From Verrucomicrobiota bacterium (GTDB lineage: Bacteria > Verrucomicrobiota > Kiritimatiellia > SS1-B-03-39 > UBA6053): a DNA stretch of 64,000 bases. A model generated the notes under the pieces. The model searched no databases, was not told the origin of the DNA, and saw nothing but the letters and a program-made list of their open reading frames with translations. The position numbers were made by a program, and so were the translations under genes. Of this stretch, positions 3,462 through 61,600 are shown in pieces; position 1 is the first letter of the stretch; each line of letters begins with the position of its first letter. Location: assembly GCA_020831625.1 (NCBI GenBank), contig JAFIGD010000005.1, positions 62,001 to 126,000 on the forward strand, read 5' to 3'.

Positions 3462-3485
3462 GGTCGACTCCTGTTTTATGGATGG

Positions 3486-40136: not shown

Positions 40137-40266
40137 CTTGAGTCGGGAAACAGCTTGGTCTGTTTTAAATATTCTGTCCGTATTAAGCATGTGGCAATTT
40201 CTGTTTGTTTCTGCTAGGGTTCTTTTTTCTGATTAGTCTATCCTCGTTCGTTTCATGGAGTCTTGT

Positions 40267-43200
40267 ATGATGATTTTTCGCAATGTTTTTTTTCTGATGT
40301 TGTTTTCGGGTTTGTCGCTTCGCGCGGAACCGCTTCCCCTGCCGCAGGCCGGGGAGATGCTGCAGGTGACACTGGAGGGTCTTTTGTTCCAGAACCCGGA
40401 CACGCCCGGGCGGGCGCTGATGATGGAGTTCAACCGGCTGGGGGATCACTGGTTTATGGGGGGCGGCCATTCCCCGTCGTATAACCGCGGCACGCACCGC
40501 GGGGTCATCACGTTTGCGGATGCGGAAAAGTTGGACGCGTTCCGGATGCGGGTGGATGTGCAGGGAGACGCCTGGGTCAGCGGCGGGTTTGTCGATGTGA
40601 AAATCGATTGGCGTTCAGAAGACGGGGAGAATTTTGTTGGAACCTATGAGGGCGAGTCTCTTGGACAGAAGGTGTCCGGAACCGCGCGCGGCGTTTATTC
40701 CTCTCCGGCAGATCCGTTGCCGGGTTTTACGGCGGCGTCGCGCGGTCAGCATCCGCGTTTGCTGTTGACGGAGGCGGATCTGCCCGCGCTGCGCGAAAAA
40801 GCGGAAACCGAATTCGGACGGGAGGCGCTGGCCCGCTTTGAGGAGTCGTCGGTCGGGCTGGGGATGCTGTATCTGCTGCGTGAGGACCCTGCCTATGCCG
40901 AGCGTGCCAAAGTGGCGGTGCAGGTGCATATGGCCGATATGGAGAGCGGGGATAAATCGATTCGTCACCGCTTCTGGGGCTATCGTCTGGAGCAGGTCGC
41001 CATCACCTATGATCTCTGTTTCCATGCCTGGCCGGAGGATTTCCGGGCCGAGGTTCAGGATTACATTCGGGCGATTGCCCGCCGGATGCACCGCGAGAGA
41101 GGGTCGTGGACCGAATATGTGCAGTGGCATCCGGAAAACGCTTACAACGCCTCCATGATATATTCCGGGGTGATCGGGATGTTGGCCATCGCCGATGTGG
41201 AGGGCAACGCCCCCAATCCGCCCGCCGCGCCCGAGGTGGAGCGGCTGGCCCCGAAGGACTGGACCCTGGACATCGATGTGCCGCTGGTGGCGGTGGAGCC
41301 GGGGGTATTGCCCGCCAAATTCTGGTATTCCGGACCGTTGACTCAGGAACAGTTTCAGGCCTTCCGTGAGGCCGGCGGGGACCTGAGCACGCTGGAACTC
41401 GACGAGGAAAAGGTTCGGATCCTCGAACGCGATCCGGCGGAGAGGGGCATTGTCCGGAGCGGATATACCGGCGGTCATGACACGCTTTGTGTGAACCAGG
41501 CCTCCGGCACCGCCTTTGACAGTTGGAATGTTTTCGCAACCCGCTGGAATGTGACGGAGGGCGGAAATTACTATTATCAAAGCAACCACGGCGGCGTGGT
41601 GCCGTACCTGAACGGCGAGCGTGTCGGCAATTCGGTGCTGCTGAACCTGGAGCCGGGGGAGTACACGCTGGTGCTCGCCGCGCCCCTGGGGCGTCCCAAT
41701 CCCTGGGCGGGTGTCTTTGTGCGTCCGGTTCTGCGTCCGGTGAGCGACGCAGAAGTCGAGCAATTGCAGGCCGATAAAAACGAAAGCTATGCCCGGGCGA
41801 TCATCTTTCACCGTCAGGTGGCGGCCGACCGGGAGAAACTCGGAGGCGTGGACCCGGCCACCACCTCGCTGGTGCGGGACGCTCTCTTCTGGTTCCGCCG
41901 CTATGAGGAAACAAAATTCGGTGCCGCCGGGAGTCAGTTGGGGTCCACCAACAGCATGGCCCTGGAGGGGCCGGGCCTCATGTCCACCATCTATCGGAAT
42001 GTGACCGCGCAGCCGCTGGGGCATCAAAACGGCATGGCCTACTGGCTGCCGCGCAAGCTGATGGCGTTTTCATGGACCGCGGAGGGCGAGGAAGTGCATC
42101 AGGACTTTTTCGGAGAGGCGGACTTTTATGCCCGGGGCTTTCAGGATGACCGCCCCAACCGCGGCCTGGTGCTCGCGGCGCACTTCCCGACCATCGCTCC
42201 GGAATATCAGCCCATGGCGTGGTGGTTCTGGCAACAGATCGGCAGTCCGTTCGAGGTCCGCACCTTGCCGCGGGCGAACCGTCTGGTGGAGGCGGGACAC
42301 CCCGGCACCAGTTACAACAGTATCCCTGTTTATGCTTTCCTGCACGCCCCGCTGGAGATGGAGCCGGTCCATCCCGCCGAAGCGCTGCCCCGGAGCTGGC
42401 ATGATCCGGTTACCGGCGATTTTATCTTCCGCAACGCCTGGGAAAATGAAGAGGACGTGGTCTTGCAGATGACAGCGCAGCAGGTCTTTAACCGCGGGGG
42501 AAGTCAGACGTCCGGCTCCTTCGCGCTGCGGGGCCTGGGACACAATTGGACCGCAGATCAGATTGTCAGCATGACCTCCATGCCGCCACGCAACGAGCAT
42601 CCGGTGGTGCAAACCGAAAACCCCAACCAATTCCGTGAAGGCAGGGGACGCGTGCTGGACGCCCGGGTGTATGCCGACGGCTCCGGCGTGGTGCGCATGG
42701 ACCTGTCCAAAGCCTATCGCAGTCAGCCGGAAGGAAAAGCCCGCCTCCGCAACGCGCGGGACAACATCGGGTCGCTTTATCCCGGCGCGTTGATCGACGA
42801 CGGGGATGTCGTCTCCGTTACCCGCACGATTCTCACCGATTACAGCGGCGCCGCCGGCGTGCCTGCGGTGGTGATCCTTTTGGATCAGCTTGAGGGTGTT
42901 GAGCACCATTTCTGGAGTTGGCCGCTGAGCATTGAGATTCAGATGCGCGGCAACTCCCCGGGAAAAACAACCCCAATTGAGCGGATTGAAATTGAAAAAC
43001 CCGAACATGTGGACCTGTTCGACAACGGGTTCGTCCTGCGGCGCGGGGACAAGCGGCTCACCACCCGTTTCATTTCGGATGAGAAGCTCGATGTGGGCCT
43101 GATCGGGCTTCAGAATCTGCGGCATATTGTCCATTCCAGATGCCAGCTCCGGACCCGGAATCTGGTTACTGCGGAGGGGAGCGACACCTACCTCGCGGTG

Positions 43201-43341
43201 ATCACCCTCGGAGAAGGGGACGCGCCCGTGATGGAAACCGAACGAAGCGGGGACGTCCTGCACATCAGGATCGGCGGTGCCGTGTACCGTGTGGAAAACG
43301 GGCACCTCCGGTTTGAAGGCCGTAGCGATGAGGTCCCATAA
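40267..43341 (+). CDS. Heparinase II/III-like polysaccharide lyase
   Basis: The 1024-residue exported protein has a signal peptide (residues 1-18, LSLRAEP). Residues about 30-145 form a beta-rich module like those in the 26 kb PQQ protein. From about 155 (RGQHPRLLLTEADLPALREKAET) a helical alpha/alpha toroid begins; it includes WTEYVQWHPENAYNASMIYSGVIG, with the His and Asn residues expected in the catalytic cleft of heparinase II/III and alginate-lyase-like enzymes. A carbohydrate-binding-like insert lies at about 330-510, and the C-terminal half is an antiparallel beta sandwich. It would break acidic polysaccharide by beta-elimination. The ATG at 40267 has GGAG 6 bases upstream; 40255 is an alternative. 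The substrate is not determined. Confidence 0.75.
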   Translation: MMIFRNVFFLMLFSGLSLRAEPLPLPQAGEMLQVTLEGLLFQNPDTPGRALMMEFNRLGDHWFMGGGHSPSYNRGTHRGVITFADAEKLDAFRMRVDVQGDAWVSGGFVDVKIDWRSEDGENFVGTYEGESLGQKVSGTARGVYSSPADPLPGFTAASRGQHPRLLLTEADLPALREKAETEFGREALARFEESSVGLGMLYLLREDPAYAERAKVAVQVHMADMESGDKSIRHRFWGYRLEQVAITYDLCFHAWPEDFRAEVQDYIRAIARRMHRERGSWTEYVQWHPENAYNASMIYSGVIGMLAIADVEGNAPNPPAAPEVERLAPKDWTLDIDVPLVAVEPGVLPAKFWYSGPLTQEQFQAFREAGGDLSTLELDEEKVRILERDPAERGIVRSGYTGGHDTLCVNQASGTAFDSWNVFATRWNVTEGGNYYYQSNHGGVVPYLNGERVGNSVLLNLEPGEYTLVLAAPLGRPNPWAGVFVRPVLRPVSDAEVEQLQADKNESYARAIIFHRQVAADREKLGGVDPATTSLVRDALFWFRRYEETKFGAAGSQLGSTNSMALEGPGLMSTIYRNVTAQPLGHQNGMAYWLPRKLMAFSWTAEGEEVHQDFFGEADFYARGFQDDRPNRGLVLAAHFPTIAPEYQPMAWWFWQQIGSPFEVRTLPRANRLVEAGHPGTSYNSIPVYAFLHAPLEMEPVHPAEALPRSWHDPVTGDFIFRNAWENEEDVVLQMTAQQVFNRGGSQTSGSFALRGLGHNWTADQIVSMTSMPPRNEHPVVQTENPNQFREGRGRVLDARVYADGSGVVRMDLSKAYRSQPEGKARLRNARDNIGSLYPGALIDDGDVVSVTRTILTDYSGAAGVPAVVILLDQLEGVEHHFWSWPLSIEIQMRGNSPGKTTPIERIEIEKPEHVDLFDNGFVLRRGDKRLTTRFISDEKLDVGLIGLQNLRHIVHSRCQLRTRNLVTAEGSDTYLAVITLGEGDAPVMETERSGDVLHIRIGGAVYRVENGHLRFEGRSDEVP

Positions 43342-44127: not shown

Positions 44128-46824
44128 ATGCGTCGGATTTGTGTGTTGTTTCTGTTGTCGGTTTGGGGGGGCTTTCAGGCCCCGGGCGGGGTGTTGACCT
44201 CGGAAAACGGGGCTCCGGTGGTGACGGTGGTGGTGCATAACTGGGTGTTGCCGGACGCGACCCGGAATGATCCGATGTCGCGTGCCAATCTGGCGGTGGT
44301 GCGGGCGTTTCAGCAGCGGTATCCGGAGATCGTGCGGGAGCGGTATGCGGCGCGGTACCGGGCGGATCCGGACCGGTACGGGGATCATGACTGGGACCGG
44401 GTGTCGGTGCGCACCCGCAAATTCACGGGCATTCGGGTGGAGGGGGTGGAGTCGGACCTGATGGCCATCGCGGGGGGCGTGGCTCCGGATGTGATGTATT
44501 TGAATTTCCGGCGGTCGGACACCTATATCCGGCAGGGCTTTCTGGCACCGCTGGATGATTATCTGGCGGAGATGCCGGAGGCGGAACTCGCGGAGCGGGT
44601 GCATGAGAAGGTCTGGCCGGTGATCCGCCGGCCGGGTCCGGACGGAACCGAGCACACCTGGGCGCTGCCCTACGGCGGTCTCCTGGGCAAAGGGTTGCTG
44701 TATAGAAAGGACCGCTTCGCGGAGGCGGGGCTGGCCCCCCCGGATGCAAGCTGGACCTGGGAGGATCTGCATCATGCGGTGCGGGTGTTGTCCGATCCGG
44801 GAACCGGCCGCTACGGCATCCGTTTCGCGCGGGGCACGCATGAAAGTTATCAGTTTACCTCATTTTTGTGGTCCGCCGGCGCGGAATTCATGGTGCGCAA
44901 TCCGGAAACCAATGAATGGACGATCGAGTACGACTCCCGCGAGGCGGCGGTGGCCCTGGATTTTTATACGCGTCTGGTGACGGAGCCCTGGGTGGATGCC
45001 GGCGGGGTGCGGCGGCGCGGCTTCGCGTTCCGCGACACGGCGGGGGCCTGGGCGAAATGGCAGCAGGGCGATATCGCCATCACGCAGGGCTATGTGGACG
45101 AGGAAATGTTCGATGTCATCAATCCGGAACTGACCGGACTGGCACCGATTCCGAAGGGGCCGGACGGTTTTCGGGCCAGCGAGGTGAACAGCCGCATGTT
45201 GGGCCTGTTCCGCGATATCCGGCATCCGGTGGTGCGGGACGCGGCCTGGGAATTTATCCGGTTCTTTGACTCCGAGGAGGCCCAGGAGATCCGCACCCGG
45301 ATTCTGGTGGAGTCGGGACTGGCGGGATTCCTGAATCCGCGTCAACTCGAGCGCTTCGGTTACGGGGCGCTGTTGAAACTGACCCCGCCCGGCTGGATGG
45401 ATGTGTTCGCGCTGAGCATTCAGAACGGCCGTCCGGAGCCCTACGGTCCCAACAGCAATATCGCCTACGATTTATTGTCGGTTCCGCTCCAGCGGGCACA
45501 GGAGCTGGCGCTGGCGGGAGAACTGCCCGAGGACGATGAGGCGCGGCTGGATGTGCTGCAGGGCCTGCTGCGCGAAGCGGCGGAACGGGCGCGGCGGGAT
45601 ATGCTGGGCATCACCCCGCCGGAGGAACTCCGCAAACGCAACACCGTTTCCGCGCTGGTGCTGATCGTTCTGGCGGCGGGGTACGCCTGGGTGATCCGCC
45701 GGATTGTGAAAACCTACGCCCGGGCGGCGGTCGCCGCCGGCGAGGTGGGTAAGCGCCGGAATCATCTCTGGGTGGCGGCACTCATGTTCCCGGCCCTGGC
45801 CACCGTGGCCCTGTGGCAGTACGTGCCGCTGGGCCGGGGCTCGCTGATGGCCTTTCAGGACTACCGTCTGCTCGATCCCTCGCCCTGGGTCGGCCTGCGC
45901 AATTTCGGCGAGGTGTTGTTCGATTCCCGCTGGTGGCAGGCGGTGTGGACCGCCATCCGCTACACACTTTTGGTCATGGGCCTGACCTTCCTGCCGCCGA
46001 TGCTGTTGGCGGTACTCCTGCAGGAGGTGCCGCGGGCGCGGCTGTTTTTCCGGACGGTCTATTATCTCCCGGCAGTGGTGAACGGACTGGTGATGATTCT
46101 GATGTGGAAGTCGTTTTATGAGGAAAGTGAGCGGGGGCTGCTGAACGCGGTGGTGATGCGCATTCCGGCGGGGGCGCATGTGCTTGGCGGCGCGTTTTTC
46201 GCGGCGGTGTGTGTGGGGCTGTCGCGGCGGCTGGCACGGCAGGACAACCGTCTGTGGTCCGGACTGTTGCTGGCGGCGGCGGGCGGATTCGGGTGGACGG
46301 CCTGGACCCTGATCGAACCGATCGTGGCGCAAAACGGCGGTTTCGCTTTGGGCGCGACCCTGCGGGAGCCGGTGCGCTGGCTGAGCGATCCGGCCACGGC
46401 GATGCTGGCCTGCGTGCTGCCGCTGGCCTGGGCGGGCATGGGGCCGGGATGTCTGGTGTATCTGGCCGCACTGAAGGGCATCGACGAGGAGTCCTACGAG
46501 GCGGCGGAAATCGATGGCGCGGGCTTTCTCGACAAAATCCTGTTTGTGGTCGCCCCCCGCTTGAAGCCCCTGATTCTGATCAACTTTATCGGGGTGTTTA
46601 TTGCCGCCTTCTTTCATGCCGAGGTCAATATTCTCGCCATGACCGGCGGGGGCGCGAACACCGAGGTGGCCGGGCTGCATATTTTTTATCAGGCGTTCAT
46701 TTATCTGCGCTTCGGTCCGGCCACGGCCATGGCCTGGCTGCTGGGCGCGCTGCTCATCGGCTTCACCCTCTGGCAACTGCGGATGCTGGCGAATCTGGAA
46801 TTTCGAACCTCGGAGAAGCACTGA
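44128..46824 (+). CDS. Sugar ABC transporter: solute-binding protein fused to MalF-like permease
   Basis: This 898-residue protein combines two functions that are normally separate. After a signal segment (residues 1-22) comes an extracellular solute-binding domain of the carbohydrate type (residues about 28-490: GVAPDVMYLNFRRSDTYIRQGFLAPLDDYL, WALPYGGLLGKGLLYRKDRFAEAGL and GDIAITQGYVDEEMFD). A helix near 505-528 anchors it. From about 545 a MalF-type permease follows (LMFPALATVALWQYVPLGRGSLMAFQDY), with the EAA loop EESYEAAEIDGAGFLDKILFVVAP at about 787-815. The binding protein is thus tethered to its own channel. The stop overlaps the next permease start by one base. Start codon 44128 is preferred over 44044. 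Confidence 0.88.
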   Translation: MRRICVLFLLSVWGGFQAPGGVLTSENGAPVVTVVVHNWVLPDATRNDPMSRANLAVVRAFQQRYPEIVRERYAARYRADPDRYGDHDWDRVSVRTRKFTGIRVEGVESDLMAIAGGVAPDVMYLNFRRSDTYIRQGFLAPLDDYLAEMPEAELAERVHEKVWPVIRRPGPDGTEHTWALPYGGLLGKGLLYRKDRFAEAGLAPPDASWTWEDLHHAVRVLSDPGTGRYGIRFARGTHESYQFTSFLWSAGAEFMVRNPETNEWTIEYDSREAAVALDFYTRLVTEPWVDAGGVRRRGFAFRDTAGAWAKWQQGDIAITQGYVDEEMFDVINPELTGLAPIPKGPDGFRASEVNSRMLGLFRDIRHPVVRDAAWEFIRFFDSEEAQEIRTRILVESGLAGFLNPRQLERFGYGALLKLTPPGWMDVFALSIQNGRPEPYGPNSNIAYDLLSVPLQRAQELALAGELPEDDEARLDVLQGLLREAAERARRDMLGITPPEELRKRNTVSALVLIVLAAGYAWVIRRIVKTYARAAVAAGEVGKRRNHLWVAALMFPALATVALWQYVPLGRGSLMAFQDYRLLDPSPWVGLRNFGEVLFDSRWWQAVWTAIRYTLLVMGLTFLPPMLLAVLLQEVPRARLFFRTVYYLPAVVNGLVMILMWKSFYEESERGLLNAVVMRIPAGAHVLGGAFFAAVCVGLSRRLARQDNRLWSGLLLAAAGGFGWTAWTLIEPIVAQNGGFALGATLREPVRWLSDPATAMLACVLPLAWAGMGPGCLVYLAALKGIDEESYEAAEIDGAGFLDKILFVVAPRLKPLILINFIGVFIAAFFHAEVNILAMTGGGANTEVAGLHIFYQAFIYLRFGPATAMAWLLGALLIGFTLWQLRMLANLEFRTSEKH

Positions 46825-48608
46825 TGGGCCTGATTCCCAAAACCGGACGGAAAGCCTGGAAAGTTCGCCTCCTGCACGGCGGGATTTTTGCGACCCTGAC
46901 CCTGGGGGCGCTGACCATGGTGGTGCCGTTTCTGCTCATGTTGACCGGGGCGACGCGCACAGGGGTGGATCAGCACGGCTTCCATGTGCTGCCGCAGTTT
47001 TTGCGCGATGACACGCTGCTGTTCCGCAAGCACATCGAGGCCCTGTACAACGAATCCCCCTCGGCTCTGCGCGCGGCCTGGGGCGTGGATGACGCCGACT
47101 TTTCGACGCTGGAGCGTCTTGAGTCCGTGGACCGCGAACAGGCGGAGGCCTGGCGTGTCTTTGTGGCTGCGGAAGAGGGCGCGTATTTTCCCGGATACAC
47201 CCTGACGCCGGTAAGCCGCTCGCGCGGCCGGAATGTGCGCGGGTTTATCCGCTATCTGAAAGAACAGTACGCGGGGGACATCGCGGCGGTGAACGCGGCG
47301 CTGGAGACCGATTTTGCCGGATGGAACGCGGTGGCGGTGCTGCCGCCGGATCCGCGGGCGCGGCTGGGACGGGTGGAGGACTCCCCCTGGTGGTCGGCCT
47401 GGGAGGATTACCTGGAGACCGCCGCGCCGGAGTGGTCGCTTGCAAATTTCGATTTAACCGGATTTTTTCATGAGCGGGTCTGGATTCCGCAGCGGGGCAG
47501 GGGGGCGGCGAGGCCGGAACTGACGCGCACGGCGCCGGAGGACGACGACGTGCGGACGGCCTGGACCCTTTTCGTGCGGGAGATTGTGCACCCGCAATTT
47601 GTGCGCATCGGCACGGAGGCGGAGACGGCCTGGCGGGCGTTTCTGGCCGCGCGGTACGTGGATTTGCCAACGTTCCGGCGGATTACGCATCTGGAGGCGG
47701 ACGACTGGACCGATGTGCCGCTCCCCGCCGCCTGGGAGGACAGCGGTCCCCTGCGCACCGACTGGGAGGCGTTTTTGCAGGGATGGAACGATGCCGAAGA
47801 CGTGCTGCACCGCGCTCCGGTTGATGCGCTCACACTGCACAGTCCGGATCTAAGCTGGCGGGAAACCACCGGCACCGCCCCGCCGATCCGGGAGGCGGAC
47901 GCCTTGACCTTTGAAGTCCATCGGCGCGAAATCCGACGGCTGTTTTTGTTTCAACATCTCGGGACCGTGTGGGAGATTTTGATTCTGGACGGACGCGGTC
48001 TGGGCAACACCGTGTTTTACTGCGCGATGGCGGTGCTGCTGGCCCTGATCGTGAATCCGCTCGCGGCCTACGCCCTCAGCCGGTTCCGGCCGCCGAACGC
48101 CTACGCGCTGCTGCTGTTCCTGCTGCTGACCATGGCCTTTCCGCCGATGGTCACACAAATCCCGGTTTTTTTGATGCTGCGCGATTTCGGGCTGCTGAAC
48201 ACCTTCTGGGCGCTGCTCCTGCCCGGCATGGCGCACGGGTATTCGATTTTTCTGCTCAAAGGCTTTTTCGATTCCTTGCCTCGCGACCTCTATGAAAGCG
48301 CGGCGCTGGACGGAGCGGGGGAGCTGCGGATGTTCTGGATGATCACCTTCAGTCTGTCCAAACCCATTCTGGCGGTGATCGCCCTGAGCGCGTTCGTGAA
48401 CGCCTACACGAATTTCATGTTCGCGCTGCTGATTTGTCAGGACGAAAGCATGTGGACCTTGATGGTCTGGCTGTATCAGTTGCAGCAGACCTATGGACCG
48501 GGAGTGATGAACGCCGCCTTTGTGCTCGCGGCCCTGCCGACGCTGCTGGTGTTCCTCCTCGCTCAAAACCTGATCATGCGCGGGATCGTGATCCCCGTGG
48601 AGAAATAG
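46824..48608 (+). CDS. Sugar ABC transporter permease (MalG-like) with a large periplasmic insert
   Basis: The 594-residue permease is about twice the usual MalG length. The first membrane helix is at residues 17-44. Residues about 45-370 lie outside the membrane. The normal membrane domain then follows (from FLFQHLGTVWEI; EAA loop DLYESAALDGAGELRMFWMITFSLSKP). The insert is helical and shows three similar modules near 82-116, 153-199 and 273-321. Each runs from L-x-x-x-W/A-x-T/V-D-x-D/E-F/W to a Trp-x-x-F/Y-L end. FIRYLKEQYAGDIAAVNAALETDF resembles stretches of GH42-type enzymes. The insert may recognise the glycan or pair with the fused binding domain. The ATG shares one base with the upstream stop, so the subunits are coupled. 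Confidence 0.85.
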   Translation: MGLIPKTGRKAWKVRLLHGGIFATLTLGALTMVVPFLLMLTGATRTGVDQHGFHVLPQFLRDDTLLFRKHIEALYNESPSALRAAWGVDDADFSTLERLESVDREQAEAWRVFVAAEEGAYFPGYTLTPVSRSRGRNVRGFIRYLKEQYAGDIAAVNAALETDFAGWNAVAVLPPDPRARLGRVEDSPWWSAWEDYLETAAPEWSLANFDLTGFFHERVWIPQRGRGAARPELTRTAPEDDDVRTAWTLFVREIVHPQFVRIGTEAETAWRAFLAARYVDLPTFRRITHLEADDWTDVPLPAAWEDSGPLRTDWEAFLQGWNDAEDVLHRAPVDALTLHSPDLSWRETTGTAPPIREADALTFEVHRREIRRLFLFQHLGTVWEILILDGRGLGNTVFYCAMAVLLALIVNPLAAYALSRFRPPNAYALLLFLLLTMAFPPMVTQIPVFLMLRDFGLLNTFWALLLPGMAHGYSIFLLKGFFDSLPRDLYESAALDGAGELRMFWMITFSLSKPILAVIALSAFVNAYTNFMFALLICQDESMWTLMVWLYQLQQTYGPGVMNAAFVLAALPTLLVFLLAQNLIMRGIVIPVEK

Positions 48609-48785: not shown

Positions 48786-51700
48786 ATGAAAAAATACACC
48801 CCGCTGTTTGCTCTTGTTTTGATCGGATTTCTTTACCTCGGGCGGGCTTTATGGTCCAACGCCGCCGGGAAGCCCGTCCCCGCGCGGGGAATGCCCGATG
48901 CGCCCTCCGTTGAACCGCAAGCCCTGACGGATCCGACCGGTCTGACCGATCCCTCGGCTCAGGCAGATCAGACGGATCCGACCGATCTGTCTGATTGGAC
49001 CGATCTCACGGATCGGCCCGTTGCTCCGGAGGCGAATTACGCGGTCAATGACCCGCAGGGGGTGATTTCACCTGTTGTGCATTTGGTGGCCGGAGCGGTG
49101 GAACTGGAGCGGCGCGAACTGGAGCCGGATGCTCAAGGGCGTCCGGGTCGGTTGCGTTTGATGCGGGCTGATGCGTTCAAATACCCGCTGCTGCGGGTGG
49201 AGGAGCGTTTCGGCACCTACGCGAACGGGGAACTGAATCCGTTCCCCGAGGTGCTGGTTTCGGTAGCGGATCACGTGATGCTTCAATTCGATCCCGCCAG
49301 GGACGAAGCGGAGCTGGAGGCACTGACCCGTTCGCTGGGCGGCCGGATCCGCGAGCGGTTGTTGCGGCCGGGTCTGGTGCTGATGGAGCTGCCGGAGGCC
49401 CATCTTGACGCGCTGCCGAATGCGATCGCCTCGCTGGGCGCACAGGCGGGCGTGCGTTTCGCGGAACCGGACTGGGTGGTGGGCCATCTCGCGGGGGTGA
49501 CCCCCAATGATCCGGACTTTGCCGCGCTGTGGGGCCTGCCCAAAATTGAAGCCCCGCTGGCCTGGGAAATCACCACCGGCCGCCGCAACGTGGTGGTGGG
49601 CGTCATTGACTCCGGCGTGGACTACAACCACCCGGATTTGCAGGCAAACATTTTCTACAACACCGGGGAGTCGGTGAACGGCACCGACAGCGACGGCAAC
49701 GGCTTTGTGGATGACATCCGCGGCTGGGACTTTTACGACAACACCAACGACCCCATGGATGAAAACCGCCACGGCACCCACGTGGCCGGCACCATTGCGG
49801 CGGTGGGCAACAACAACCTCGGCATCACCGGTGTGGCCTGGGAAACGCGCATCATGCCGCTGCGGTTTCTGGGTGCGACCGGCTCCGGCACCACCTCCGG
49901 CGGCATTAATTCCATTGCGTACGCCACCCTGATGGGCGTGGACATGACCAACAACTCCTGGGGAGGCGGCGGCTTTTCACGGGCGCTCTACGACACCATC
50001 GCCGAGGCGCGGGACGCCGGGATTCTCTTTGTCGCAGCTTCCGGGAACTCCGGGGCCCCGGATCCGGGATTCCCCGCCCGCTACGGCAACACCGGCTTGC
50101 CGGAGGGTCTGCCGCCGCTCGACAACGTCATCAGTGTGGCCGCCTCCGAGAATACCGCATCCGATTCCCTCGCCTCCTTCTCGAATTTGCGAGCCCATAT
50201 CGCCGCGCCCGGCGTGGGTATTTATAGTGCCACGCTGGGGAACGGCTACGAAAGTCTCAGCGGCACCTCCATGGCCAGCCCTCATGTCGCCGGCGCCGCC
50301 GCGCTGCTGTTGGCGGTTCAGCCCGATCTGGAGTACAGCGTCGTCAAGAATATGCTCCTGACCCATGTGGACAAGCGTTTGTCCGATCCCGTATACGAGC
50401 TGTACATCCATTCGCAGGGCCGCCTGAACATCAACAGCACCCTGCGCAACCTCAACATCCCCATCATGGTCCACACCGCCACGGCGCTGACCGATCTCAA
50501 CGGCCCCCGCGCCGGCAACGGGGTGATCAACCCAGGGGAAACCATTGAACTAACCCTTTCCCTGCGCAGTGTCGGCATGATTGACACGGAAAACGTGGTG
50601 GCGACCCTTTCCGCGGACAGTTCCTATGTGACCGTGACCCAGGCGACCCGTGTCTATGGCGATTTTGAACGGTATGAGACGGTCGACAACACGCAGCCCT
50701 TTGTGTTCACTGTGGATACGTCGCCCCCCACGCCCTATGTCATTCCCTTCCAGCTCACCATCACTGCCAACGAGGGCGGACCCTGGGTGGAGGAAATTCC
50801 GCTGACGGTGTACACGTCCGTAGACGTGAGCGGCACGGTGCGCCATCTGGACGGCTCGCCTTTCGCAGGGGCCGAAGTGGTGTACAGCGGACCTTTTTCG
50901 GGGAGCGCCCCCGCCGGGGTGGACGGAACCTTTGCCTTTGAGATGGTGGACGGCACCTACAAGGTGTTCGCCGAAGCCCCCGGCTTCCGGCGCAGTCCCA
51001 CCCGACTCCACACCGCGCCGCCCGGCATCACCGAACTGAATTTCGTGCTCGGCAGCAGTGTCATCGGGAGTTCGCTGGCGGCGGTGGAGGCCGAGGCCCG
51101 TCCCGGCGGACGGGTGGAGCTGAGCATCGATCTGAGCAACAGCGGCAACCTGCCACTCAACTGGCAGCTCCGCGAAACCGAATACGGCTTCGAGTTCTTT
51201 GAAAACGGGCTGAACGATTCAGGCCGTCCCGATCTGCACTGGAAGGAAATCCGCCAGGAGCAGGGCGGACCGGGCACCCGCATCAGTTGGTGGGAGCTGA
51301 ACAGTCCGGTGCCGGTGACCTCCGGGGGTGTGCCGACCGGCTGGAGCGGCATGGAGCGCTGGTCGCACGGACCGCTTTCGTTTGATTTTGAATTTCCCTT
51401 TTATGGTCAGCGCTTCAGCAGTGCGCGGGTGAACAACGCCGGATGGCTGGGCTTCACCTCCGTGACCCGCGGCGTCTTCTACAACGCCGTCGCGCCCATG
51501 CCCGATGAATCCTTCATGGATTACAAGATCGCCTTCCAGTGGGCGCTGCGCGAAGCCGGCCGGTCTGATACGAACGGCCCCACACACCAAAAACCCAACC
51601 AAAGCTCTTGGCACAACCAAAGCGGTTTTGGCGACACCCTGCACGCCTACGCCCACAACTGGGATGACCATTCCTGGGTGTTCACCTGGCATCAATGGGG

Positions 51701-54700
51701 CAGCCCCTTCACGCGCACCCCCTCCGAATTCGACACCGGGCAGGTGGAACTGCGTTCCGACGGCAGCATCATCATGCGCTATCTGGACTATCAGAAGCTG
51801 CCGGGGGTGGATGAGTTTACCTTTGGCGGCCCCTTCTTTTTCAGCGCCGGTCTGCAGGACGGCAGTGCCTCCCGCGGCATGAACCCGATTTTCCGCAACG
51901 CCACGCCGTACAACCCGACCCCCGGCTCTGTGCTGGTGATGCGTCCCGAGGTCGCCGCCGCCTGGATTGTGCCCGACCGCACCGCCGGCACGCTGGCGTC
52001 TCTGGAAGGGCAGGGCACCCTGCGCCTCACCCTGGATGCGGGCCAGCTCCCCCCCGGTGTGTATCACAGCAGCATCGTCATCGACAGCGATGACACCGCC
52101 GGCAACGCCGCCCTGCGCATTCCTGTCACCTTCACCGTCAGCGAGACCGCCCCCAGTCTGGTGCTCACCTCCCCGGTGGCGGATCTCACCGTCGAACCCG
52201 GAAGCGATCTCAGCGTCACCGCCGTGTTTGACGGCGAGGGAACGCCTGCCGGTGATGTGGAGCTGCTCAACGGTGACCAGGTTCTCGCGACCGGGGATAC
52301 CTTCCTCTGGGAAAGCATCCCCGGCGGCTTTCACGAACTGACCGGCCGGGTGACCCTGGTCGGCAGCGGTCACACCGTCTATGCCCCGGTGCGGAACGTG
52401 CGCGCGGGCAAGGGCCTGCGGCTGCGCTGGGAAAGCGAAGACCTGCCCATGTACAGCGCCTCGCTGGTGGGCAATCCCATCCAGCTGCTGCAGCCTCCGG
52501 TGGTTTCGGCCAACCGTGTCAGCGCGGAACGTTTTGATATTACCCCTGTGACCCTCGATCCCGCGCACATCACCTGGTGGGGTTCGACCAACACCCGTGA
52601 TCCCAACGGACGCGACGGTGCCTTCAACATCGGCAACGCCGGACGCGAGCTGCGCCTCACCACCAACAACTACCGCAAGCATCCCTTCAGCTACACCGTC
52701 ACCCCCAACACCGTGCTCGAATTCGAGTTCAGGGCCTTCAATGATCCCGCCGACGCCGCCACCTTCGTCTATGGTCTCGGTTTCGCGGAAAACAACAACC
52801 TGAACGCCAACCGCGTCTTCCGTCTCCTCGGCAAACGCAACTGGGGGATCAACAGCTGTTACGGACAGTATCCCTACAGCCACTCCTTCCACTCCGGCCG
52901 CCGTCCCTGGGTGCGCTACCGCATTCCCGTGGGACAGCATTACACCGGCGACATGCAGCACCTTGTCTTCGTGGCCCATTCATTGGACAGCAACTTCAAC
53001 CTGTACTTCCGCGATGTGGACGCCGCCTTCCGCAATCTGCGTGTGTTCGAATCCACCGAGTCGGATGCCTTCTCCTTCGCCTGGAGTTTTAACGACACGG
53101 CCCGCACGGTGGACGGACCCGAGGCGATCCGCACCTATTTCAGTCCCGGCACCAAGGAAATCAACGTGACCGTCAGCGACGGTCCCTACCGCGCCAGCGC
53201 CACGCGTGTGCTGGAGCTGCCCGGTTCCGAAGTCTTCCGCGTGGCGGTGAATTTCCAACCCGAAACCGCCACCATCCCCGCCGGCTTTGTGGCCGACACC
53301 GGCAAGGCCTTCGGCGACCGCGCCAACGATTTGCGCTACGGATGGGACAGCGACCGGTCCGGCCAGACCCGCGACGACAACTGGCTGGTTTCCTACGGCT
53401 CGGAGCAGGGTGTGACCCGCATCCGCGCCGGCAACGGCGCCTCCTGGCGCATGGCCGTTCCCAACGGCATGTACGCCGTCACCGTCCACACCGGCGCCAG
53501 CGAGGAAAACAGCAACGCCCTGCTCCGCTTCAACGGGCAGACCCTGCTCGACCGCAACCTCGGCCAGCACGACTATGCCGAAGGCTCGCTCACCCTGCCC
53601 GTGAGTGACGGCGAAATCGTCATCAGCTCCCACCGCAACACCGCGTCTCTGCTCTACCTCGAAATCAACCGCGTGGACGATTTGCAGCGTCCGCCCACCG
53701 CGAGCTTCACCCTCAGCCCCCAGACCGGGAATGCGCCCCTGCCGGTGCAGTTCGACGCCGCCGACTCTTTTGACAGCGACGGCTCCATCGTGAGCTACGC
53801 CTGGGACTTCGGCGACGGTTTCACCGGCAGCGGCATGCAGACCCCGCACAGTTATCCCGTGCCCGGTGTGTATGATGTGACCCTCACCGTTACCGACAAC
53901 GACGGCCTCATTGGCCAGACCACCCTCAACGTGGTGGTGCACGGCACCGCCCAGCCCGCAGTGTGGGTGACCCCGCCGCCGCTGCCGCCCGCTGTGCCCC
54001 CGGCCTTCGGCGAACCGCAGCCGCAGCCCCGCCGCGAACTGTCCGAGGACGGCGGCAGCCTCGGCTACAGCGTGGTGCTCACCACCGCGCCCGCGCAGAA
54101 TGTGACGGTTTCCATCGGCACCGGCGACCGCGTCGAAGCCCAGCCCGCGTCGCTCACCTTCACCCCCGCGAACTGGGATCAGCCGCAGAGCGTGCAGCTT
54201 TCCGCCGTGGACAACGAAGTGGTCGATGGCGATGAATTTGTCAGTATCACGGCCACCGCCTCCAGCGGCGACAGCGGCTACGACGGTCTCGCGGGCGCGC
54301 CCTTCGACGTGTATGTTTTGGATAACGATGCCTACGGAACCGTGCAGTTCATTCAGTCCGCGGTGACCGTGAATGAAGACCACGGAACGCTTGAAGTTCA
54401 GGTCTCCCGTATTGGCGGACAGTCCGGCGAACTCACCGCGCAGTTCACCACCGTGGATGGAAGCGCATTGGCGGGAGAGGACTACACCGCCGTCAGCGGC
54501 ACCCTCACCTGGGCGCACAACGACACCGCCCACAAAAGCATCTTCATTCCCATTCTCGATGACAACGAGCCCGAGCCGCCGGAAACCTTCCTGGTGCAAC
54601 TCACCGCCGCCGCCAATGAGCTGGACGCCAGCGTGCTCGGCACGCCGGCCACGCTCACGGTGACGATTCTCGACGACGACAATGTCAACCCCGCCATCCT

Positions 54701-57700
54701 TCTGCAAAGTCCGGCGGACGGGGCCACCTTTGAAGTCGGGGATGTGGTGCCCCTCCAGGCCGAGGTCACCAGCAACACCGCGAACATCACCGAAGTGCGC
54801 TTTTTTGTGAACGGCAGCCATGTCAGCGCCCAAACCCAACCGTTTACAGGCAGCCTGTACAGCTTCAACTGGGTGGCAAGTGTCGGCGCGACAACCTGGC
54901 ACGTGCAGGCCTTCGATGACAACGCCGGAGAAAGCGTTTCCGAGACTCGGAACTTCACCCTCACTCCCGTTCCGAACATCGGAAACGGCGGATTTTTGAG
55001 GGAAATCTTCTATGATGTAACCGGGAACAATGTCTCCGATTTGGTGGGCAGTCCCGCGTACCCCGACGAGGCTGACCTTTTTGACTTCATTGACTCCGGG
55101 ACGATGGTGTATCAGAACAGCGCCACAAATTACGGCACCCGTCTCCGGGCCTACTTTGTGGCTCCGAAAACCGGAAGCTATCATTTTTATCTGAGCGCGA
55201 CTCAGCGGGCGGAACTCTGGCTGAGTTCCAATGAGCTGCCCGGGAATGCGGTGAAAATTCTCAACAATGTCGGGGCGCAAAATCCCGGGAATTGGGGGCA
55301 TGCCTCCCAGCGCTCCGCCGCAGTTCCGCTGGTCGCGGGGCAGCGGTACTACCTGGAGGCGCTCCACAAAGCGGGCACTTCCGGCACCCGCCACATTCAG
55401 GTGGGGGTGGAACTGCCGGGTGGTCAGTTGGAGCGCCCGATTCCGGTGGCGTTTTTGGAACCGTTTGACGGGGTGAAGGTTGAAACGTTGCCCCAGCTTG
55501 TGCTCGTGCCCGAGGGCGGCACCGCCCTGGTGCATGTGCGCCTGCGTCAGCAGCCTTTTGGGGAATTGACGCTGCAGAGCACGCTGATGGATCCGGTCGA
55601 CGGCGGCGAAAGTCTGGAAGTAATCGGCGGAAATACGCTCAATTTCACCCCCGCGAACTGGAATCAATGGCAGGTGATCAGCCTCTACGCGGCCCCCGAT
55701 GAAGATGCCATTGATGGCGAGGCCACCCTGCGCCTGGCTCTCAACAACGGCACCTGGTGGGACATCACCGCGCGGGAAATTGATGCCGAACTGAACCATG
55801 CCCCCACCGTGGGCATCATGAGCCCAACCACTTCTTCCGTCAACCTGCCCGCCGGGGTGGGACTGTTGCTGGAGGCGGACGCGGTGGATCTGGACAACGA
55901 TCCGCTCACGGTGCTCTGGGAACGCGTCAGCGGTCCGGGCTCCGTCACCTTTGATGACGCGTCCGCGCTGGAAACCGGGGCCCGCTTTTCCGCCGACGGA
56001 GACTACCTGCTGCGGATCACGGTGGATGACGGCGAATACAGCGCCAGCGCCTACGTGACAGTGTGGGTGAATCCGGCGGCGGTGACCGAGGCCAACCTCA
56101 CCACCACCCGCGGCGGTTCGCTGAGCATTGACGGGGGGAATTGGACGCTTTCCGGGGCGGGCCGCAGTGTTTTCACCAGTCCGGATTCGGCCCGCTTCGC
56201 CTACTCTGAACTCCGTGGTGATTTTGATGTCAGCGGGCGCATCGGATCTTTCAGTTCGGGTCCCAACTGGAGTTTCACGGGACTGCATGTTCGGAACAGT
56301 TTAAACGTCAATTCCAGTCACTTCACCGCCGGGGCGTACCGGGACGGGAATACCCGTCAAAGTTCGACCGTTCGGTATCGTATCAACGATGGAGATTCAG
56401 ACACCATTGGCGGACAAAACCTGCCGGGCACCCTCACCGACGGCTGGGTGCGTGTCACCCGAACGGGCAATACTTTCGGCGCTTTTCACTCCACGGATGG
56501 CAGCAGTTGGACTGAAAGGGTATCCGTCACGATTTCCATGGGTGCCACTGCTTTCGTTGGCCTGATTGTGGACAATCAATCGGACGGAACCACGCTTGCG
56601 ACCGCAAATTGGTCCAATGTCTCGATCCCCGCCACCGTCAATCTCGCCCCGCTCGTGGATGCCGGGCCGGACGCGACGGTGGATCTGGGCGACAGCCATA
56701 CGCTTGCCGCCAGCTTCAGCGGCGAGCACCTGCCGCAGGGGCCGCTGCAAACGCAGTGGCGGAAGATCTCCGGCCCCGGCGCGGTTTACGCCAATCCCGC
56801 GCCGCCGACGGAACCCGATGCGGCCGTCAGCTTTGAACTGCCCGGCGAGTACGTGCTGCGCTTCCTCGTCTCCAACGGCGAGGCGGTCACCTTTGACGAT
56901 GTGACGATCACCGTGGAGGGGAGTGAACCTCTCCCGCCGCCGCCAAGCGGGCTAACCGCCACCGCCATCGCGCATGACCGGATTGACTTGAGTTGGACGG
57001 ATCCGACTGATCCGTCGGATGAATTCCGTATCGAGCGCTCCGCCAGCGGCAGTACCGGCTGGTCGTTGCTGGCCACAGTCACCGGCACCAGCCACAGCGA
57101 CACGGGCCTTGCGGGCGGAAGCACCTGGTATTACCGCGTGATCACCCTGCGCGGCGGCCTGGAAAGCGTCCCATCCGGCACGGCCTCGGCCGCCACCCCG
57201 GCCGCGCCCGCCGGGCCGGTGATCACCACGCAACCGCAGTCGCAGAGCGTCTTCGAGGGCGCGAACGTCAGTTTCAGCGTCACCGCCACCGGCAATCCAG
57301 CGCCGGAGTACCAGTGGCGCAAGCACGGGGTGGACCTTTCCGGTGCGACCGACAGCACCCTGACGCTCACCAACGTTTCTTTTGGCGATACCGGCAACTA
57401 CACCGTCTTCGTTTCCAACGGGATTGGCGAGGGTGTTGAGAGCGATGTGGCGGCACTGTCGGTCAATGAGACCGGAAACCTGCTTATTTATGAAGGTTTC
57501 GACTACGACACCGCGCTCACGCATTTGCACGGCCAGGCGCCCACCGGCGAAGGGCTCGGCGGCACCTGGTCGCAGAGGCACACCGGAGCCGGCGAAAGCC
57601 ATGTGGTGGACGGGCTGACTTTCGGCCCCCTGGTGGTCAGCGGCAACGCCTTCCAACTGCTCGGGGACCGTTTGACCAGCAGCCTAGACCGCTATAACGT

Positions 57701-58535
57701 CGTATCGATTCCCGTGACGGCCTCCAGCACCGCGGACACGCTGTGGACCAGTCATCTGGTGGAATTCCGGGTGCGGGACGAGGAACTCACCAATAACAGC
57801 GCCAACCCCGATTCCCGCTGGCAGGACCGGGTGGCCCTTTTTCCCGGTCAAATGGGGCGAAGCGACATCCCGGACATTGGCTTTTCCGGGACCCGGGATC
57901 AGTCCACCAGCCAGGGCCGGGTCGGCCTGGCCGGGGGCAACACCGACGGGGGCGCGGGGCTTGCCTTCGGGGAAACCCATATAATTATCGGAAAAATCAC
58001 GGGAATGCATCAAAGCGGATCCGTCACCAAAGCCGCGACCCTGTGGGTACTGAATTTGGCGGATTTCGAGGCCTTTGTCGCCGCCGGACGGACCGAGGCG
58101 GATCTGGAGGAGCACCATCGGTTCACACTCACCCGGACCGTCACGAATGAAACGGAACTCACCCTCGGCGGGCACCTGAATCTGCACACCCTCGATTGGA
58201 ATGTCCGCAATTTCTTCCCCGTCTACGATGAAATCCGCTGGGGAGCGGATTTACAGGCGGTGACGCCGGTGGCCGGATCGCCGCTTCCGCCCCTGATTCC
58301 TCCGCAACTGAGCGGGTTGTTGATGATGGAAAACGGCCGGGGCATTCGGATCCAGACTCAAAGCGACTTTGAGTATCTGCTGGAATACAGCGACACTCTT
58401 CTGGACGATCCCGAGTGGCTGCCCATGGGTGGTTGGACCCGCGGCAACAACAGCGATCTGGATCTCATGGATGAAACACCCGACGTTCAACAACGTTTTT
58501 ATCGTCTCCGCATGCGCCGGGGTGTTGGGGAATAG
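48786..58535 (+). CDS. Giant secreted subtilisin-like protease, multidomain
   Basis: The 3249-residue protein begins with a signal or anchor helix (residues 1-28). A TDPTDLSD-type repeat stretch follows (about 47-78), then a prodomain. The S8 protease is at about 255-540: D275 in VIDSGVD, H329 in RHGTHVAG and S495 in GTSMASPH give a complete triad. Downstream, in order, are a carboxypeptidase-regulatory-like repeat (about 680), malectin-like (1480-1630), PKD (1637-1715), two Calx-beta (1755-1980), an Ig-like domain, PA14 (2065-2230), a PKD/cadherin-like region, Fn3 (2717-2805) and Ig (2810-2895). A C-terminal beta domain ends in FYRLRM. It is probably a cell-surface or released adhesin-protease. 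The base pattern shifts from G-rich to C-rich after the protease. Confidence 0.88.
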   Translation: MKKYTPLFALVLIGFLYLGRALWSNAAGKPVPARGMPDAPSVEPQALTDPTGLTDPSAQADQTDPTDLSDWTDLTDRPVAPEANYAVNDPQGVISPVVHLVAGAVELERRELEPDAQGRPGRLRLMRADAFKYPLLRVEERFGTYANGELNPFPEVLVSVADHVMLQFDPARDEAELEALTRSLGGRIRERLLRPGLVLMELPEAHLDALPNAIASLGAQAGVRFAEPDWVVGHLAGVTPNDPDFAALWGLPKIEAPLAWEITTGRRNVVVGVIDSGVDYNHPDLQANIFYNTGESVNGTDSDGNGFVDDIRGWDFYDNTNDPMDENRHGTHVAGTIAAVGNNNLGITGVAWETRIMPLRFLGATGSGTTSGGINSIAYATLMGVDMTNNSWGGGGFSRALYDTIAEARDAGILFVAASGNSGAPDPGFPARYGNTGLPEGLPPLDNVISVAASENTASDSLASFSNLRAHIAAPGVGIYSATLGNGYESLSGTSMASPHVAGAAALLLAVQPDLEYSVVKNMLLTHVDKRLSDPVYELYIHSQGRLNINSTLRNLNIPIMVHTATALTDLNGPRAGNGVINPGETIELTLSLRSVGMIDTENVVATLSADSSYVTVTQATRVYGDFERYETVDNTQPFVFTVDTSPPTPYVIPFQLTITANEGGPWVEEIPLTVYTSVDVSGTVRHLDGSPFAGAEVVYSGPFSGSAPAGVDGTFAFEMVDGTYKVFAEAPGFRRSPTRLHTAPPGITELNFVLGSSVIGSSLAAVEAEARPGGRVELSIDLSNSGNLPLNWQLRETEYGFEFFENGLNDSGRPDLHWKEIRQEQGGPGTRISWWELNSPVPVTSGGVPTGWSGMERWSHGPLSFDFEFPFYGQRFSSARVNNAGWLGFTSVTRGVFYNAVAPMPDESFMDYKIAFQWALREAGRSDTNGPTHQKPNQSSWHNQSGFGDTLHAYAHNWDDHSWVFTWHQWGSPFTRTPSEFDTGQVELRSDGSIIMRYLDYQKLPGVDEFTFGGPFFFSAGLQDGSASRGMNPIFRNATPYNPTPGSVLVMRPEVAAAWIVPDRTAGTLASLEGQGTLRLTLDAGQLPPGVYHSSIVIDSDDTAGNAALRIPVTFTVSETAPSLVLTSPVADLTVEPGSDLSVTAVFDGEGTPAGDVELLNGDQVLATGDTFLWESIPGGFHELTGRVTLVGSGHTVYAPVRNVRAGKGLRLRWESEDLPMYSASLVGNPIQLLQPPVVSANRVSAERFDITPVTLDPAHITWWGSTNTRDPNGRDGAFNIGNAGRELRLTTNNYRKHPFSYTVTPNTVLEFEFRAFNDPADAATFVYGLGFAENNNLNANRVFRLLGKRNWGINSCYGQYPYSHSFHSGRRPWVRYRIPVGQHYTGDMQHLVFVAHSLDSNFNLYFRDVDAAFRNLRVFESTESDAFSFAWSFNDTARTVDGPEAIRTYFSPGTKEINVTVSDGPYRASATRVLELPGSEVFRVAVNFQPETATIPAGFVADTGKAFGDRANDLRYGWDSDRSGQTRDDNWLVSYGSEQGVTRIRAGNGASWRMAVPNGMYAVTVHTGASEENSNALLRFNGQTLLDRNLGQHDYAEGSLTLPVSDGEIVISSHRNTASLLYLEINRVDDLQRPPTASFTLSPQTGNAPLPVQFDAADSFDSDGSIVSYAWDFGDGFTGSGMQTPHSYPVPGVYDVTLTVTDNDGLIGQTTLNVVVHGTAQPAVWVTPPPLPPAVPPAFGEPQPQPRRELSEDGGSLGYSVVLTTAPAQNVTVSIGTGDRVEAQPASLTFTPANWDQPQSVQLSAVDNEVVDGDEFVSITATASSGDSGYDGLAGAPFDVYVLDNDAYGTVQFIQSAVTVNEDHGTLEVQVSRIGGQSGELTAQFTTVDGSALAGEDYTAVSGTLTWAHNDTAHKSIFIPILDDNEPEPPETFLVQLTAAANELDASVLGTPATLTVTILDDDNVNPAILLQSPADGATFEVGDVVPLQAEVTSNTANITEVRFFVNGSHVSAQTQPFTGSLYSFNWVASVGATTWHVQAFDDNAGESVSETRNFTLTPVPNIGNGGFLREIFYDVTGNNVSDLVGSPAYPDEADLFDFIDSGTMVYQNSATNYGTRLRAYFVAPKTGSYHFYLSATQRAELWLSSNELPGNAVKILNNVGAQNPGNWGHASQRSAAVPLVAGQRYYLEALHKAGTSGTRHIQVGVELPGGQLERPIPVAFLEPFDGVKVETLPQLVLVPEGGTALVHVRLRQQPFGELTLQSTLMDPVDGGESLEVIGGNTLNFTPANWNQWQVISLYAAPDEDAIDGEATLRLALNNGTWWDITAREIDAELNHAPTVGIMSPTTSSVNLPAGVGLLLEADAVDLDNDPLTVLWERVSGPGSVTFDDASALETGARFSADGDYLLRITVDDGEYSASAYVTVWVNPAAVTEANLTTTRGGSLSIDGGNWTLSGAGRSVFTSPDSARFAYSELRGDFDVSGRIGSFSSGPNWSFTGLHVRNSLNVNSSHFTAGAYRDGNTRQSSTVRYRINDGDSDTIGGQNLPGTLTDGWVRVTRTGNTFGAFHSTDGSSWTERVSVTISMGATAFVGLIVDNQSDGTTLATANWSNVSIPATVNLAPLVDAGPDATVDLGDSHTLAASFSGEHLPQGPLQTQWRKISGPGAVYANPAPPTEPDAAVSFELPGEYVLRFLVSNGEAVTFDDVTITVEGSEPLPPPPSGLTATAIAHDRIDLSWTDPTDPSDEFRIERSASGSTGWSLLATVTGTSHSDTGLAGGSTWYYRVITLRGGLESVPSGTASAATPAAPAGPVITTQPQSQSVFEGANVSFSVTATGNPAPEYQWRKHGVDLSGATDSTLTLTNVSFGDTGNYTVFVSNGIGEGVESDVAALSVNETGNLLIYEGFDYDTALTHLHGQAPTGEGLGGTWSQRHTGAGESHVVDGLTFGPLVVSGNAFQLLGDRLTSSLDRYNVVSIPVTASSTADTLWTSHLVEFRVRDEELTNNSANPDSRWQDRVALFPGQMGRSDIPDIGFSGTRDQSTSQGRVGLAGGNTDGGAGLAFGETHIIIGKITGMHQSGSVTKAATLWVLNLADFEAFVAAGRTEADLEEHHRFTLTRTVTNETELTLGGHLNLHTLDWNVRNFFPVYDEIRWGADLQAVTPVAGSPLPPLIPPQLSGLLMMENGRGIRIQTQSDFEYLLEYSDTLLDDPEWLPMGGWTRGNNSDLDLMDETPDVQQRFYRLRMRRGVGE

Positions 58536-58637: not shown

Positions 58638-61600
58638 ATGAAAACCAAAATCCGTTTACTCCTTGTGTTGCTCCTGCTCGTGTTGACGGGGCTTTTCCTG
58701 CGATTGAATGAAGGCGCGGAGGCTCCGTCCGAAGCCGTCGCGCCGTTGGACAAACCGGCACTCGCTGAAGCTTCCCATTCCGGGGAGACGGCGGTTCCAG
58801 CGAAGGCTTCGGAATCGGCGGAGGAACGCGGGCAAAACGGGTTTGAGTCGGTCGAGGCACCGGTACTCACCGCGGCGGACCGGGTAGACGCGGAGGGCAT
58901 GCCCGCGCCGGTGATTCCCCGCGGACTGCACAACCGCCGGGTGTTGGACACGCCCGGGCGCACGCGGCTGGAGCCGGGCACCGGGGAACCCGTGCGGGTG
59001 TTTTTGGATGTCCGCCCCGCACGGGAGAACTCGCCTTTTGCCCGGGACGCATACACCCTGGACGCGGTGGAGGCTTCGATATCCCACCGCCTGTTTCATG
59101 ACCTGGCGGGCGGAATCAGCAGTCGGCTGATCCTGCCGCTGACCGTCGGGGAGGAGGTGGAGGTCAATGTGTACGAAATCGTGCACCGCGGCGAACACAC
59201 CTTCACTTTCATGGGGAAAATTCCCGGGGACCACGACAACGATGTGATTCTGGTGTACAACGAGGGGACGGTGGGGGGCTCGATGACGTTGTTTGACCCT
59301 GAAAGCGGCGGGGCGCGGCACTTTCAGTTTCAGGGAATGGAGGAGGGGGTGATTGCGATCAGAGAACTGGACGGGGAGGCTTTTATGGAAAGTGATTGCG
59401 GCGGGGTGATTCCGGGAGAGCAGCTCTTTGACGGCGCGGAGGCTGCGGGCGGGGACCTGGAGGGTGAAGAGGGCGGTTTGTCCGCCGGTGACGGCTCCTC
59501 AAAGCATATTGTTGACATTGTGGTGGGATACAGCATCCGCGCCCGGAACAACGGCGGGGGCACCGCCGGGATCGAAGCCACGATTATCGCCTCCGTGGAC
59601 CGGATGAACCTGGCTTTCACCAACAGTCTGGTGGACAACGCGGAACTGGTGCTTCTGGGAATGATTGAAGATCCGGACTATGCGGAGCCGGGCACGGGCA
59701 GCAGTTTGCTGGATGAACTCAACGACCTGAATAATCCGAACAGTGAAACCTTTTCGGTGGTCAAGGATCTCCGCAACGCCCTGGGGGCGGACAAGCAGGC
59801 GTTTATTGTGAATGACGCGGATGGCGGGGATGCCGGCCGGGCGTTTTATCCCGGGTTCTCCTCCGTCACCGCCCGCACCTACATGACCTCCACCACAATT
59901 ACCTTCGTGCATGAGGTGGGGCACAACTGGGGTTTGGCCCACTCCTGGGGGGACAGCTCCTGGTCAGCCGACACCAGTAAAAACGCCAACAATTTTGGCT
60001 GGCGTTTCCAGAGCGGGAGTACCAAGCGGCGAACGGTTCAATCCTATGACTGGGGATGGCAGCGGGTGCCCTGGTTCGGCAATCCCGATGTGACCCACCC
60101 CAGCCTGAACGTGAAAGTCGGGGCGGCAGACGGTTATAACGCCAGTGGCGACAACACCACGGACAGCCGCTATGTGAACGGGGGCCTGGAGGGCGGATTG
60201 GGCGCGGGGTTTGACGGGAGCAACGCGACTTTGGGCGCACGCGCGGCCCACACCCTCATCGCCCGGGCGCAGGAACGCTCGAATCTTCGCGCCCGCGCGG
60301 CTCTTGGCGTTACCCGTCCCGCGCCGGGACAGGACGTGGAAATCAACCAGACCTTCTCCCTGGAGTGGGTCGGCGGGGCCTGGCTGGATGTGGTGGACGT
60401 CGAATTGTTGAAAGGCGGCGTCCCGGTGGAAGTTATTGCCCAGGGCATTCCCAACCAACACCGGGTGCTGAACTGGACACCCGCCGATCTGACGCGGGGG
60501 AGTGATTATCAGATCCGCCTCACGCTGAACAACGGTGAAGAGGCCTCCCTCTCGGAGCCCTTCAGCATTGACCCCCTTTATCCCCGGGTGGTGGACACGT
60601 TCGTGGACCCGACCGGTGTGGCTCAACCCGGATTGGAAAGCGTTTCCGTGACCTTTAACCGTCCCATGGATCCGGACGGCTTCTCGATGTCACAGGACGT
60701 GACCCGCTTTGTCGGCCCCGGCGGCGCGGATGTCACCGGCAGTCTCTCCGGCGTGAGCTGGAGCGGGAATGACACGGTGCTGACTTTTCAGTTCTCTCCG
60801 CTCACAGAGGAGGGGTACTATCGTCTGGATTTTGGGCCCGACATTCAGGATCTGCGCGGTTTCGCCATGGATCAGAACGACAATGCGGTGCCGGGCGAGG
60901 CGGAGGACGGTTTCGGGTTTTCGTTCCGGGTCTCTTCTGGCATGACGGGCGGCGTGCAGCCGCTCCTGCAAACGGATTTTGACAGCGGTCATTCTTTCAG
61001 CCTGGAGGGCGGCTGGGCCGTGGGTGAGCCGAACCAAGGCCCCAACGGACCGGTCGCCGCCTTTTCCTCACCGAATGTGCTCGGGACCTATCTGAATGGG
61101 GACTATTCTGCAAATGTGAATATCTTCGCGACGACGCCCGCTTTCTCCACCCTGAACGCGGAGAATGTCACCGTCAGTTTTCAGCGTTTTCTGGGCCTTC
61201 GATATGACAATCGGGGAGGGCCAAATCGAAAACGGGATTTCGCTCGGATTCACTATTCGGTGAATGGAGCCGCATGGCAGCCGCTTTGGGTGAATACGGA
61301 GGAAGTAAACGGTGATTTAATCGACCCAGGCTGGGTATCCCGGTCATACGATCTTCCGACTGCGGTAAACAACCAATCGAATGTCCGCCTGCGCTTTCAA
61401 TTGGAAACCGACGATGCGGAGCATTCCTTTGGCTGGAACATCGACGACCTCCTCGTCACCGGCGAGTTTGAAACCCTGATTCCCCCCGCCCCGGCCCCTT
61501 ATGTGGCCGGGCATTTTCCCGAAGGCGCGGTGATTGTGTCGCCGACCTCGTTTTGGATCGATTTTGACCAGCCCATGGACACCGGGAGTTTCTCGCTGGG

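Follow-up and report, generated by a model that had tools for sequence, protein, structure and literature searches.

The window considered here is a 64,000-nucleotide stretch of contig JAFIGD010000005.1 from a Verrucomicrobiota bacterium (assembly GCA_020831625.1). It contains two overlapping forward-strand genes, a binding protein-MalF fusion (positions 44128..46824) and a MalG-like permease that carries a large insert (46824..48608; an open reading frame of 594 residues). The TGA of the first gene (46822-46824) and the ATG of the second (46824-46826) share a nucleotide (..CTGATGGG..). Three large reading frames lie nearby. Positions 40255-43341 encode a 1028-residue secreted protein that lacks a Pfam match and by eye resembles proteins of the heparinase/alginate-lyase type. 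Directly downstream of the pair, positions 48786-58532 encode a secreted protein of 3249 residues that is subtilisin-like (S8) and also contains PKD, Calx-beta, PA14, Ig and fn3 domains. A second giant frame, which runs from 58638 to 64000 and past the end of the window, has reprolysin-like metalloprotease, laminin-G and Calx-beta domains.

The first gene encodes a protein with a signal-like N terminus, a CUT1 solute-binding protein domain (matched over residues ~112-388; Pfam SBP_bac_1, 2.6e-21), a linking transmembrane helix at residues ~509-527 (from hydropathy) and, in its C-terminal third, a MalF/UgpA-like permease (residues ~570-895; UgpA/MalF matches). A binding domain fused to the partner subunit had been proposed in a sequence-only reading of this DNA, and the SBP_bac_1 match (112-387) and the permease match (639-887) do fall within one open reading frame, as they do in relatives. 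At the place of the MalF-P2 domain, sequence and hydropathy leave a loop of only ~45 amino acids. The protein also contains an extra hydrophobic hairpin of ~60-70 residues (residues ~675-745; window positions 46150-46360), where the alignments of its relatives break.

The second gene encodes a permease whose homology to MalG covers residues ~393-589 and, in the structural alignment, also the first transmembrane helix (TM1, residues ~12-42). Residues ~393-589 align with MalG, UgpE, AlgM2 and SugB and include a BPD_transp_1 match (PF00528, 9e-14), with the MalG alignment running through the EAA region. The corresponding TM2-TM6 core (47997..48593) contains an EAA-type motif (ESAALDGAGELRMFWMITFSLSKP) and aligns to MalG (2r6g_G) and AlgM2 (4tqu_N); D496-G497-A498 is invariant in A2. 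TM1 (residues 12-42; 46857..46949) is placed by AlphaFold2 secondary structure, hydropathy and flanking charge, and since the N terminus before it is positively charged, and thus inside, the loop that follows (P1) is periplasmic. An AlphaFold2 model of the whole permease (pLDDT 87, pTM 0.82) superposes on MalG (3puv_G) with a Z score of 19.8 over 261 residues at 3.1 Å, covering model residues 14-594. The score against the NCBIfam MalG equivalog (79.5 bits) falls below its cut-off of 261, which marks the protein as a CUT1-type permease rather than MalG proper.

Between TM1 and the core, the P1 loop accommodates an insert of ~340 residues (residues 45-388; 46956..47987) that AlphaFold2 predicts to be a periplasmic helical repeat domain, with a pLDDT of ~92 in the window protein. 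The sequence-only reading had likewise placed a repeat-bearing insert after the first membrane helix, where it indeed lies in the first periplasmic loop. Single-sequence searches with residues ~45-388 returned no Pfam or NCBIfam match, and profiles from relatives were needed. A module profile built solely from relatives outside the window protein's family scored 108.5 bits against the window protein, where the maximum in 2000 shuffles was 7.3. This profile identifies module 1 (residues 59-116; 46998..47171; iE 8e-12), module 2 (139-199; 47238..47420; iE 3e-15) and module 4 (266-322; 47619..47789; iE 4e-13), the last of which holds the GH42-like stretch discussed below. The earlier count of three similar modules is therefore right for the window protein, as far as complete modules are concerned. 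Two further modules are degenerate: module 3 (residues ~209-255; 47448..47588), which has lost its second helix and matches as a half-module at 235-255 (iE 0.019), and module 5 (residues ~335-382; 47826..47969). Relatives have complete modules at both places, which makes five the usual number; most of the 69 aligned homologues have five and others have seven or eight (L136, L138, L144).

Profile comparison indicates that the modules are homologous to one another. All ten module pairs match, with scores of 19-78 (E values from 1e-3 to 2e-14), and 100 column-shuffled profiles scored 10.3 at most; the HHalign probability is low for M1-M2 and M1-M5 alone. The predicted insert is thus ordered and helical and its parts are related, rather than disordered or dissimilar, and we found no homologue in which it forms a separate gene of known function. 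In Foldseek and VIA-align searches with the full model, permeases filled the lists, and for this reason the five-module insert of Victivallis vadensis DSM 14823 was folded and searched alone. Its AlphaFold2 model (pLDDT 94.3, pTM 0.91) has a repeating pattern of helix, helix, 3/10-helix and strand.

Searches with the isolated Victivallis insert mainly returned clan GH-A enzymes, each over one module. In the closest cases, one module superposes on these enzymes at 1.8-2.2 Å over 61-68 residues, and the Victivallis counterpart of module 4 superposes on GH42 enzymes at ~2 Å. Sequence comparisons point to the same relationship. Of 69 relatives, 61 have a Pfam GH42 match (2.9e-14 at best), which covers only profile positions ~142-208 of 376 and comes in several tandem stretches. 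Seven homologues inspected singly each have one to four such stretches, and in every one of them the best stretch falls within profile positions 148-208. A PDB profile search matched GH42, GH14, GH50, GH167 and beta-1,2-glucosyltransferase enzymes, with 1kwg aligned at its residues 155-213. The GH42-like stretch that had been noticed in the bare sequence is therefore real; its statistical support comes from the relatives, and in the window protein itself the match is not significant. The Z values of the superpositions (5-8) are modest taken alone and carry weight because sequence and structure agree on both the segment and the clan.

Each module thus matches one helical excursion of the GH-A barrels (1kwg ~155-213), here repeated in tandem inside a membrane protein. 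We infer that descent ran from enzyme to permease. In contrast to the GH-A enzymes, the insert lacks the TIM barrel, and both catalytic glutamates (E141/E312 in 1kwg) lie outside the matched segment. For the whole insert, no solved chain was matched in the structure searches, an absence from those searches rather than proof of a new fold, and a search of a viral library gave no match.

We next considered how the insert is distributed. With the insert alone as the query, 53 of 97 related genomes gave a match, nearly always inside a permease-size open reading frame. A scan of species genomes identified at least 525 stretches that encode proteins related to the permease as a whole. The 80 best belong to Kiritimatiellota, Lentisphaerota and Planctomycetota, apart from a few in metagenome-assembled genomes with other labels. 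The fusion gene is present in all 53 insert-positive genomes, whereas 7 of the remaining 44 have it, five of them with divergent fusion proteins (Fisher p 5e-20, a value that is overstated because related genomes were treated as independent). In nearly all loci whose contig reaches far enough, the fusion lies directly upstream of the insert-bearing gene, and distant fused paralogues carry modules too.

A second importer provides a comparison. In 13 genomes of the same class, another binding protein-MalF fusion is followed directly by a MalG gene (adjacent in 13 of 13; L145:1906-6451 on the minus strand, L146, L147 and ten more genomes). This MalG (in L145 at 1906-3654, minus strand) has an insert of ~300 residues in the same P1 loop, which contains no module and has no Pfam match; by eye, it looks beta-rich. 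The number of residues that precede the TM2 match is 73-210 in MalG proteins encoded beside an unfused MalF, figures that are upper bounds because they were taken from stop-to-stop frames, versus roughly 380 and above in the fused systems. The unfused set includes the separate-gene MalG proteins of the window's own genome, and two longer frames (L154 and L155) that overlap the MalF gene come within the same range once the overlap is removed. The co-occurrence, the insert of the second importer and the short unfused loops together indicate that the insert belongs to importers with a fused binding protein.

Two other arrangements were observed. The window's own genome encodes another importer whose MalF and MalG form a single fusion protein of 630 residues, in which the loops are ordinary (L003:1480-3372, minus strand). 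Elsewhere, a MalF relative in a 680-residue frame (L159:2316-4355, minus strand) has several hundred residues before the MalF core and adjoins a MalG that lacks a large insert; this may be a further fusion or an artefact of the frame.

The genes that neighbour the pair are not conserved. Apart from the pair, a MalK-type ATPase is the only recurring neighbour whose role in transport is evident; it occurs at 11 of 80 loci and adjoins the pair in some relatives. Glycosidases are found among the neighbours (GH38, GH2, DUF4838), and the neighbourhoods of the 80 loci yielded no guess at the substrate. The window's genome contains, away from the pair, a MalK-like gene that shares 65% identity with the MalK adjoining the pair in L084.

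Comparison with characterized importers places the pair within a familiar family. The maltose-type importer is a textbook ABC importer, and E. coli MalFGK2-MalE (CUT1) shares with the system described here the MalG fold, the EAA motif, a CUT1 binding protein, a MalF-like partner and a MalK-type ATPase in the genome. It differs in that its binding protein is separate and its MalF has a P2 domain, whereas here the binding protein is fused to a MalF that lacks P2 and the MalG P1 loop has grown from about 50 residues in E. coli to about 340-390, with a helical repeat domain. The periplasmic permease loops of the E. coli system are known to hold the binding protein: according to the title of Daus et al. 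2007 (reference 89 in PMC3150292), MalE contacts both MalF-P2 and MalG-P1. PMC3150292 describes MalF-P2 as mainly beta-sheet, whereas the insert is helical and sits in MalG. The AlgM1M2SS alginate importer, which takes up large oligosaccharides, includes the solved permease nearest in sequence (AlgM2, E 4e-19); unlike the present system, it has a separate binding protein and no insert. OpuA and GlnPQ likewise have a substrate-binding domain covalently linked to a transmembrane subunit and belong to other ABC families (glycine betaine, glutamine); to our knowledge, neither has been described as carrying a large insert in a second subunit of the permease.

Together, the two genes specify the membrane portion of a CUT1-type importer, probably for oligosaccharides, with its solute-binding protein anchored to the MalF-like subunit. 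The partner lacks a P2-size loop and the P1 of MalG is greatly enlarged, which is most simply read as docking of the binding protein by the solenoid. The P1 loop carries a rigid solenoid of three-helix modules that we propose stands in the periplasm over the translocation pore, where it would dock and orient the tethered binding protein, replacing both MalF-P2 and MalG-P1 of E. coli and holding ligand delivery beside the pore. A MalK-type ATPase encoded elsewhere would power the importer. We give this docking role a probability of roughly 0.5. That a second fused system has another kind of insert in this position fits a role connected with a tethered binding protein better than one connected with glycosidase ancestry. 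Evolutionary distances of the insert and the binding domain are correlated once both permease cores are controlled for (partial r 0.35, permutation p 0.001), which is compatible with docking and weak, since other domain pairs correlate too: the MalF core gives 0.32 with the insert and 0.48 with the MalG core. At 37% mean identity, compared with 54% for the binding domain, the insert is the faster-evolving of the two, a difference that a conserved docking face does not obviously predict. The good conservation of the binding domain suggests a shared substrate within the clade.

The main rival to docking is that the solenoid itself binds glycan, an idea already raised in the sequence-only reading; it would act as an arch similar to a carbohydrate-binding module that catches long oligosaccharides and feeds them to the fused binding protein. 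The ancestry that the modules share with glycosidase barrel excursions, the glycosidases among the neighbouring genes and the variable number of modules (five to eight) would all suit such a function, which is possible and to our minds rather unlikely. The signature common to all modules and the GH-A enzymes (F/L..L...Y..i..lN...T.y..f..i..P...W..F) looks structural, its presence in every module and in the enzymes suggesting packing rather than sugar contacts, and we identified no conserved aromatic patch outside the repeat signature. In the alignment, the modules lack the FWSQ piece of GH42, which the best-matching GH42 enzyme has inside its matched segment, and an insert with no detectable similarity fills the same loop in the other fused system.

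The similarity to GH42 also raises the idea that the insert acts as an enzyme, trimming sugars at the pore. This we consider extremely improbable and reject, because the barrel and the catalytic residues are missing and the GH42 match repeatedly returns to one short segment of the profile. A large, rigid periplasmic domain in diderm bacteria could instead be a spacer or envelope adaptor that sets the importer relative to peptidoglycan or to an outer-membrane porin or TonB receptor, and a TonB receptor gene does occur near the pair in B12222 (L041). The strict link of the insert is with the binding-protein fusion, however, and no conserved outer-membrane gene adjoins the pair, so that we regard a spacer function as improbable. 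More tentatively than the docking role itself, and against somewhat longer odds, we suggest that a glycosidase-barrel fragment was repeated into a new solenoid fold that serves as a dedicated docking tower, that a different domain was recruited in a parallel lineage, and that a general design rule applies by which a binding protein welded to one permease needs a scaffold on the opposite one.

Searches of open-licence papers returned no description of an importer that combines a fused binding protein with a repeat insert, and the system is thus a variant of the CUT1/MalFG importer not described before in that literature. Kiritimatiellota, Lentisphaerota and Planctomycetota are major degraders of complex polysaccharides, and little is known of their transport biology. 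Across these phyla, ligand capture and, if the docking role is correct, docking as well are built into the membrane subunits, with part of a glycosidase put to new use as a structural repeat. If so, these bacteria would offer a natural, permanently coupled importer in which ligand delivery could be studied free of binding-protein diffusion.
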